Shown: positions 17,138 to 19,047 of the stretch, piece after piece
Numbering within the stretch: the first letter of the stretch is position 1
Layout of the letters: each line of letters opens with the position of its first letter
Source of the DNA: Elusimicrobia bacterium GWC2_64_44
GTDB lineage: Bacteria; Elusimicrobiota; Elusimicrobia; Elusimicrobiales; UBA9959
DNA length: 64,000 nucleotides
Assembly (NCBI GenBank): GCA_001799845.1
Contig: MGUG01000041.1
Span: 1-64,000 of the forward strand
Direction: 5' to 3'
Made by a program: the position numbers and the translations under genes
The notes under the pieces: generated by a model
What the model saw: only the letters and a program-made list of their open reading frames with translations
The model's database searches: none
What the model was told of the DNA's origin: nothing

Positions 17138-17265
17138 GGGCTGAGTTCCTTTCGGCCGGGGGTGCCCCGGCTGCTGATCGTATTTTGTCGGGAATTAAAA
17201 TTGAGGGGTCAGATGTATCACTTCTTTAGTCAATTATACCTTTTTAGGCGCCGGCCCCGTAAGCG

Positions 17266-17294
17266 TGAAACATTCCGGCACCGGCCGTGTCATA
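17266..17294 (+). promoter_or_regulatory. Putative ECF-type promoter P1 upstream of small ORF and sigma gene
   Basis: TGAAACATT (17266-17274) - 12 nt - GTGTCATA (17287-17294), same boxes and spacing as P2. Confidence 0.7.
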
Positions 17295-17329
17295 TCCTGT
17301 GAAGGGTGACGGCTTAAAAGGAAAAAAAC

Positions 17330-17452
17330 ATGAAGACGACCAAGGAACTGGCGGCGGTAGAGCGGGCGGCGGCTCCGAAAGATATAGAATACAAGTATAT
17401 TTACACGCCGCCGGTCGGCGGCGAAAGCGCGGGCGCGGTCTGCGTGGGCTGA
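17330..17452 (+). CDS. Small ORF (40 aa) ahead of ECF sigma factor
   Basis: ATG preceded by aaaaggaaaaaaac (Shine-Dalgarno-like AAGGA); MKTTKELAAVERAAAPKDIEYKYIYTPPVGGESAGAVCVG*; ends 9 nt before the sigma start. Confidence 0.5.
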   Translation: MKTTKELAAVERAAAPKDIEYKYIYTPPVGGESAGAVCVG

Positions 17453-17461
17453 AAACAATAG

Positions 17462-18013
17462 ATGGAAAATGAAGAGGGCCTCCTCAAAAGGATAGCCGAA
17501 GGAGAGAAAGAGATCTTCGGCGAACTGGTGCTCAGGCACCAGGACTTCATTTTCAACGTCGTATCCAAATATGTCCGGTTCGAGGAAGAGGCCCGCGACC
17601 TCACGCAGGAGGTCTTTCTGAAGGCCTACGAGAACATAGAGAAGTTCCGCGGCGAGTCCAAGGTGTCCTCCTGGCTCTACAGCATAGCCTACAATCTCAG
17701 CATGAACTGGTCCGAGCGCAGGGCCGGCCGCGAAACCCAGCTCGACGACGAGCTGGCGGAGAGCATAGCCGAGCCGGCGAGCCTGGCCGACGAGCTCTTC
17801 GACCGCGAAATACAGCTGGCGCGGATAGCCGAAGTCCTCGCGGAAATGCCGGAAAAGTACCGGGCCGTCATCGACCTTTATTATTTCAAGGACAGGTCCT
17901 ACGCTGAGATAGCGGATGCCCTCGGCCTGCCCATCAACACCGTTAAAGTGCATCTGCTGCGGGCCAAGGACCAGCTCCGTAAAAAATTAGGCGAAACAGG
18001 TGAAACATTTTAG
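17462..18013 (+). CDS. ECF-family RNA polymerase sigma factor
   Basis: LVLRHQDFIFNVVSKYVRFEEEARDLTQEVFLKAYENIEKFRGESKVSSWLYSIAYNLSMN (region 2) and LPINTVKVHLLRAKDQLRKKL (region 4). Confidence 0.93.
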   Translation: MENEEGLLKRIAEGEKEIFGELVLRHQDFIFNVVSKYVRFEEEARDLTQEVFLKAYENIEKFRGESKVSSWLYSIAYNLSMNWSERRAGRETQLDDELAESIAEPASLADELFDREIQLARIAEVLAEMPEKYRAVIDLYYFKDRSYAEIADALGLPINTVKVHLLRAKDQLRKKLGETGETF

Positions 18014-18029
18014 CGGCAGATGTGTCATA
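18001..18029 (+). promoter_or_regulatory. Putative ECF-type promoter P2 overlapping the 3' end of the sigma gene
   Basis: TGAAACATT (18001-18009) - 12 nt - GTGTCATA (18022-18029), identical boxes to P1. Confidence 0.7.
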
Positions 18030-18084
18030 GGTAGTGAGGGGACGGCGCGGCCGCCCCGGGTAGGAAGAATAGGAGAATAACAAT

Positions 18085-18996
18085 ATGCTCAAGTTCCTGT
18101 TGAAATTATCGCTGCTGACGGCCATGGTGATAGGGATAGTGCTGCTGATGCAGCATGTGGGCCCGCTGGGCCCCGACACCAAGGTCATGCTCAAGTGGAT
18201 AGGCCTCGGCGCCCTCGGCCTCGCGGCGCTGTCCATTGTGTCTATTACCCTGCTGGGCCTGGCCGGCATCATGGTGGCCATCTTCGCCATCAAGCGCGGC
18301 ACCGGCGCGGCCGAAAGCCTGGGCGGCGGGCTGAAGGGCCTCACCGGCCTAAAGGGGCTGAGCGCCCTCAGCGCGCTGGGCGGCCTGAGCGGCCTGGGGA
18401 ACCTGGGCAAGATGAACTCCCGCACCGTGGAGATCTCGGTGGACAAGTTCGAGGCTGGCTCCTTCAGGATCAAGACCCTGTCGGGCGACCTGACCCTGGC
18501 CGGCCATGCCGAAGCGGGCGCCAGGGCCACCGTGGAGATCCTGGAGCGGTCTGACGGCGACGCCGAGGCCTTCTTCGAGGGCGGCGAGATAAAGATCAAA
18601 ACCAAGAGCGGCGGCAAGGCCGTCATCGGCGACGCCTCGGTGTTCCTGCCGGCCCGGCTCTCCGCGCTCAGCGCCGAGAGCGTCAACGGCGACGTCGTGA
18701 TCAGCGGGTTTTCCACCGACGGCCAGGCCTCGTTCAAGGGCGTCAACGGGGATATCACCCTCGCCTCGCTGAAGAGCGCCGGGGAGGCGCTGGTGAAGAC
18801 GGTCAGCGGCGACGTGGAGATACGGGACTCGCAGTTCAGCGGCCTGACCGCGCAGAGCATCAGCGGCGACGTGGAGATAAAGGATTCTTCGGCTGAGAGC
18901 GCGGTGCTCAAGACCGTCAGCGGGGATATCGACTACGCCGGCTGCGACATAAAGAACCCGTCGGTGAAGACGGTAAGCGGTTCGGTCACGAAATAA
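18085..18996 (+). CDS. Membrane-anchored DUF4097-like beta-repeat protein
   Basis: N-terminal transmembrane segments; repeated VNGDVVISG / VNGDITLAS / VSGDVEIRD / ISGDVEIKD / VSGDIDYAG motifs. Confidence 0.75.
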   Translation: MLKFLLKLSLLTAMVIGIVLLMQHVGPLGPDTKVMLKWIGLGALGLAALSIVSITLLGLAGIMVAIFAIKRGTGAAESLGGGLKGLTGLKGLSALSALGGLSGLGNLGKMNSRTVEISVDKFEAGSFRIKTLSGDLTLAGHAEAGARATVEILERSDGDAEAFFEGGEIKIKTKSGGKAVIGDASVFLPARLSALSAESVNGDVVISGFSTDGQASFKGVNGDITLASLKSAGEALVKTVSGDVEIRDSQFSGLTAQSISGDVEIKDSSAESAVLKTVSGDIDYAGCDIKNPSVKTVSGSVTK

Positions 18997-19014
18997 CCCG
19001 GCCGTAGGAAAACA

Positions 19015-19047
19015 AAAGCCCCGGCGGAAAACCGGGGCTTTTTTTAT
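19015..19047 (+). terminator. Rho-independent terminator
   Basis: AAAGCCCCGG cggaaaa CCGGGGCTTTTTTTATT. Confidence 0.9.

Follow-up and report, generated by a model that had tools for sequence, protein, structure and literature searches.

What does an ECF sigma factor control when the same promoter-like element stands both before its own gene and before the next one? This question is raised by a locus in the genome of Elusimicrobia bacterium GWC2_64_44 (3.09 Mb, 60 contigs, 90% complete), which was analyzed within a window of 64,000 nucleotides (contig MGUG01000041.1, positions 1 to 64,000). On the plus strand the locus comprises, in order, the element P1, a small open reading frame (ORF) of 40 aa, the ECF sigma gene, the element P2, a DUF4097 gene and an intrinsic terminator (Table 1), and it lies between a pyruvate kinase gene that diverges from it and a GNAT gene that converges on it. 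The named relatives of the sigma factor are Elusimicrobia/Elusimicrobiales MAGs. A preliminary description of this DNA had proposed an autoregulated two-promoter regulon. The comparative evidence supports this prediction: the motif and the sigma and DUF4097 genes occur together, and the motif follows the DUF4097 gene through changes in gene order, with the qualification that P1 is not universal. Judged from sequence, P1 and P2 are very probably promoters that together make up a private circuit serving one ECF (group 4) sigma factor of an Elusimicrobiales bacterium; this degree of confidence does not extend to the brake on the circuit that is considered below.

Table 1. Features of the locus, with their positions in the window, strand and supporting evidence.
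Feature	Position	Strand	Evidence
P1, predicted ECF promoter TGAAACATT-N12-GTGTCATA before the small ORF and sigma gene	17266..17294	+	Exact match; kept before sigma in 14/21 assessable relatives
GTGAAGGG box, 4 nt past the -10 box of P1; transcription probably starts in this region	17299..17306	+	Column conservation, 14 P1 copies
Small ORF, 40 aa, peptide family ...KeIqYrYIfxPPxxGxGFxAVCvG	17330..17452	+	In 12/59 family genomes, always at this locus; length differences are whole codons; pN/pS <1
ECF sigma factor, 183 aa, sigma2 and sigma4 domains only	17462..18013	+	Pfam Sigma70_r2 and r4_2; NCBIfam sigma70-ECF; nearest solved relatives SigH/RpoE/SigW
P2, predicted ECF promoter TGAAACATT-N12-GTGTCATA before the DUF4097 gene; -35 box overlaps the sigma ORF end	18001..18029	+	Exact match; before DUF4097 in 22/22 genomes with readable upstream DNA
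GTGAGGGG box, 4 nt past the -10 box of P2; transcription probably starts in this region	18034..18041	+	Column conservation, 23 P2 copies
Predicted hairpin GGGG-A-CGGC-GCG-GCCG-CCCC, 5' end of the DUF4097 leader	18038..18057	+	Covariation
Protein of 303 aa with two TM helices and a Toastrack (DUF4097) beta-helix at its C terminus	18085..18996	+	Pfam DUF4097; AlphaFold2 pLDDT 81; Foldseek hits including 4QRK and 4OPW
Intrinsic terminator closing the operon; bidirectional by sequence	19014..19042	.	Stem of 11-12 pairs, then a T run on both strands

Both copies of the motif are exact at the positions given in Table 1, and their spacers, each of 12 nt, differ in sequence, as the preliminary description had stated. 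The resemblance of its -35-like TGAAAC to ECF promoters was likewise borne out, both elements having the canonical ECF form TGAAAC-N16-TGTC (AAC in the -35 box and a GTC-like -10 box, about 16 bp apart); AAC and CGT are the usual ECF boxes, and the -35 box of SigW is ATTGAAACCTTT (PMC8103513). One detail needed correction: the -35 box of P2 (18001-18009) does consist of the last sense codons of the sigma gene (GAA ACA TTT), but the TAG stop (18011-18013), which had been placed within the box, falls in the spacer. Upstream of P1, an AT-rich stretch (TTGAGGGGTCAGATGTATCACTTCTTTAGTCAATTATACC, window 17201-17240) resembles what is left of a mobile repeat; probes of 11-16 nt gave no second copy of it within the window.

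A search of the whole 3.09 Mb genome, fixed beforehand as the check for a random spread of the motif, returned exactly two TGAAACATT-N12-GTGTCATA sites at ≤3 mismatches, 735 bp apart, and the reversed control pattern had 0 matches in the genome at ≤3 mismatches. No exact motif appeared in 100 shuffles of the window, and about 2e-5 exact matches are expected per whole genome from the base composition. A looser core, TGAAAC-N15-GTGTCA with ≤2 mismatches, gave 59 matches in the genome against 45 for its reversed control, which is no clear excess (4 of the 59 are P1 and P2 themselves, each read on both strands), and a wider regulon of weaker sites was rejected on this ground. The predicted regulon is probably confined to the sigma factor's own locus, that is, to the small protein, the sigma factor itself and the two-TM Toastrack protein.

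Among 342 Elusimicrobiota genomes, all 24 exact motif matches sit at this locus, as do 30 of the 35 matches with ≤1 mismatch, the assignment to the locus being made from the positions of the sigma gene, the DUF4097 gene and the motif in the family genomes. Within the family (59 genomes), the sigma gene is present in 22 and the DUF4097 gene in 23, and motif matches track both. With ≤1 mismatch allowed, the motif was found in 20 of the 22 genomes with the sigma gene and in 1 of the 37 without it (Fisher p=1.7e-12), and the presence of motif and sigma gene agrees in 56/59 genomes. The 20 include G015, whose ≤1-mismatch matches are off-locus and whose site at the locus has 2 mismatches; G033, the one exception among the 37, was counted as a disagreement, its DUF4097 gene and motif lying on separate contigs, near contig ends, as expected of an assembly break. 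This conservation argues strongly that both promoter copies are functional, and since both sites are restricted to the locus and conserved in relatives, the sigma factor would almost certainly switch on only itself and a single neighbor. An off-locus motif site in G006 (C4:63819) is surrounded only by short, unremarkable ORFs.

P2 precedes the DUF4097 gene in every genome in which the upstream DNA is readable. It stays with DUF4097 in G005, although 23 kb of the same contig separate that gene from the sigma gene, and in G007 and G009, although sigma and DUF4097 are divergent there. Relative to the sigma ORF, P2 is found in varying frame, from an overlap with the final codons to a position 7-8 nt past the stop. 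Since the frame differs between species, a coding constraint is excluded as the reason why P2 is kept, and the box is conserved for its own sake and not as codons. The idea that the boxes arose by chance or are kept as coding sequence, to which the overlap of P2 with the final sigma codons in the source genome might point, is extremely unlikely given the rarity expected of exact matches, the intergenic position of P1, and the relatives, many in number, in which P2 lies entirely past the stop. The predicted DUF4097 promoter is the evolutionary core of the module, with the control of DUF4097 as its constant.

P1 is the variable part. It was found before sigma in two thirds of the assessable genomes (Table 1; G050 was left out, as its contig ends there), with a spacer one base longer in G054, and it is absent in G026, G038 and the five most distant relatives. 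The predicted autoregulation is thus widespread, yet not indispensable to the module. In the sigma tree, near relatives are resolved and distant ones sit on long branches, and both a single gain and repeated loss of P1 and the small ORF are compatible with it. Directly upstream of sigma in G026 (L130, C54), the expected P1 position is occupied by an inverted repeat or palindrome, GGGGACGTTCTTAACTATCGG...CCGATAGTTAAGAACGTCCCC, which is MITE- or REP-like and may have removed autoregulation in that species. Where P1 is present, a promoter of the sigma factor's own type stands before its own gene, and at the sequence level the sigma factor is most likely positively autoregulated via P1; a review puts the share of autoregulated ECFs at about 55% (PMC8103513).

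We infer that P1 and P2 are read by the sigma factor of this locus. The protein carries Pfam r2 at residues 22-86 and r4_2 at 121-172 of 183 aa, scores above the TIGR02937 cut-off and has the ECF (group 4) architecture, with sigma2 and sigma4 only, a short linker and a length of about 180 aa; its closest solved structures are SigH/RpoE/SigW. Neither the small ORF nor the DUF4097 protein showed an anti-sigma domain in Pfam or NCBIfam, so that no class I anti-sigma partner was recognized; a co-encoded class I anti-sigma factor is no longer treated as ECF-defining in a 2021 review (PMC8103513). The genome contains 11 other regions that match sigma-70 region 2, and in G005 the sigma gene is both remote from DUF4097 and devoid of P1. 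One of these other factors might read P1 and P2 as ECF promoters, the neighboring ECF gene being merely a target; this is improbable, because the sites accompany this sigma gene and are nearly absent without it, though the genomes that lack it carry other sigma-like candidates.

The form of the sites raises a second alternative, an operator for a dimeric DNA-binding regulator. TGAAAC and GTGTCA can be read as an imperfect inverted repeat (TGAAAC / TGACAC) whose half-sites are separated by 21 bp, or about two turns of the helix, and nearly all copies of the pattern match their own reverse complement with 2 mismatches. The halves nevertheless stay unlike everywhere, the left being always TGAAAC (TGTAAC once) and the right always GTGTC, with no symmetrized copy, and the flanks ATTT and ATA are likewise asymmetric. 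Moreover, boxes and spacing match ECF promoters, the sites track an ECF gene, and the locus has no conserved gene for another regulator. We therefore consider an operator very improbable and retain the reading of P1 and P2 as promoters of this sigma factor.

In the alignment of all copies, both boxes are near invariant, whereas the spacer and upstream columns are unconserved. The aligned P1 and P2 copies also show that the constrained element is longer than first described: it runs through TGAAACATTT(Y), the unconserved spacer, GTGTCATA, about N4 and GTGA(A/G/C)GGG, the last box lying at a fixed distance past both -10 elements. By analogy with other ECF promoters, transcription probably starts near GTGA. 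The predicted leader hairpin is mostly confined to P2 leaders and is absent in G001, G005, G015 and G050. Its covariation amounts to 19 cells with both sides changed, against 7.0 in shuffles (0/500 shuffles as high), in an alignment restricted to those genomes in which a hairpin is plausible, a choice that favors this result; the score falls when the partner strand is slid. GTGAnGGG as a mere part of this hairpin was rejected, since P1 copies carry the box, mostly without a hairpin. The 5'-terminal hairpin may stabilize the DUF4097 mRNA.

The small ORF occurs only where P1 exists and is missing in about half of the genomes. It was found only at this locus, bar one weak partial match, and its peptide has a near-invariant Y.Y...G....A.C pattern in 12 genomes and no Pfam or NCBIfam match. 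The pN/pS ratio, 0.36-0.77 in the pairs shown and 0.67 pooled, suggests weak to moderate purifying selection; the ORF is probably translated, yet inessential to the module.

The DUF4097 protein consists of two N-terminal TM helices and a C-terminal beta-helix in the AlphaFold2 model (pLDDT 81). Its Pfam DUF4097 score (6e-15) and the match of the model to 4QRK and 4OPW at E <1e-3 (Foldseek) identify it as a Toastrack protein, these being the structures named for the Toastrack domain in PMC11237479. The same paper proposes that the domain is intracellular and scaffolds sub-membrane signaling, and it already mentions operonic links of Toastrack genes with sigma factors (PMC11237479). A second, unlinked DUF4097 protein is encoded in the same genome (G000:C15:7012-7698, L148), without the promoter motif.

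The proposed circuit would operate as follows. In the RNA polymerase holoenzyme, the sigma factor would recognize TGAAACATT-N12-GTGTCATA; P1 would drive the genes of the 40-aa protein and of sigma, giving positive feedback, and its transcripts would probably run on into DUF4097. From its position at the end of the sigma gene, P2 would add mRNA for the membrane-anchored Toastrack protein, so that more of this protein would be made than of sigma, as one would expect for a brake. The transcription unit would stop at the terminator (19014-19042).

A role of the Toastrack protein as membrane sensor and negative regulator of sigma is a guess, held more weakly than the reading of the promoters. It is made because an unchecked positive loop needs a brake and because the locus encodes no alternative anti-sigma candidate that all genomes share. 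The protein is not a class I anti-sigma factor, as it starts directly with a TM helix (residues 2-24) that only a few residues precede; if it is a brake at all, it would therefore be a new kind of brake. Toastrack could then represent a new class of ECF regulator, in which a two-TM protein with a cytoplasmic beta-helix, lacking the classical anti-sigma domain, restrains sigma and frees it on envelope stress, while P2 ensures its excess and the 40-aa protein acts as an accessory modulator; we put this forward tentatively. It is nearly an even question whether the Toastrack protein is instead purely an output for envelope protection, with some other input, for instance the transcription of sigma or the small protein, setting the activity of sigma. 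The missing anti-sigma domain fits such a role, as does the single neighboring target of ECF41, which plays no part in signaling (PMC3426412). On the other hand, the sigma factor, at 183 aa, has no C-terminal regulatory extension of the kind that stands in for an anti-sigma factor in ECF41, and the small protein is often absent, whereas the Toastrack gene is always present alongside the sigma gene in the family genomes. The choice between regulator and output concerns the feedback step alone, not the promoters.

In the open-access literature searched for ECF with DUF4097 or for ECF in Elusimicrobia, this circuit was not found described, and a direct Toastrack-ECF sigma pairing through shared promoters was not found in the available text of PMC11237479. 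Its components, however, resemble several known systems. Autoregulated ECFs of the SigW/SigM/RpoE type share the sigma2-sigma4 structure, a TGAAAC-type -35 box, N16, a GTC-containing -10 box and an own promoter upstream; in contrast to them, the locus has no recognizable adjacent class I anti-sigma gene, and two promoters in the genome take the place of a broad regulon. In ECF41, as here, the private regulon is the neighboring gene and sometimes sigma itself, and the promoter follows the target gene through differing gene orders (PMC3426412). The present sigma factor does not belong to ECF41, which combines a TGTCACA -35 box and a COE enzyme as target with a large regulatory extension at the C terminus of sigma (PMC3426412); here the -35 box reads TGAAACATT, the extension is lacking, and a membrane Toastrack protein takes the place of the enzyme.

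Among Toastrack (DUF4097/LiaG/LiaX-like) membrane stress modules, a TM segment is likewise followed by a C-terminal, probably intracellular beta-helix and a transcription regulator is linked, but the PspA, PspC, LiaI-LiaF or two-component partners of those modules are missing here (PMC11237479). A parallel for the gene arrangement is Tt-RpoE1 of Thermoanaerobacter tengcongensis, whose cognate anti-sigma factor is reported to be the product of the gene immediately downstream of the ECF gene, despite its different annotation; that partner was annotated as TolB and is not a Toastrack protein (PMC3397946). Overall, the type of circuit is common and ordinary for its class, whereas the specific pairing of an ECF sigma factor with a Toastrack partner is new and unusual. 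The comparison provides a precise candidate for the sequence that an ECF sigma factor recognizes in Elusimicrobiota, a poorly studied phylum, and suggests that Toastrack proteins may act as partners of such sigma factors.
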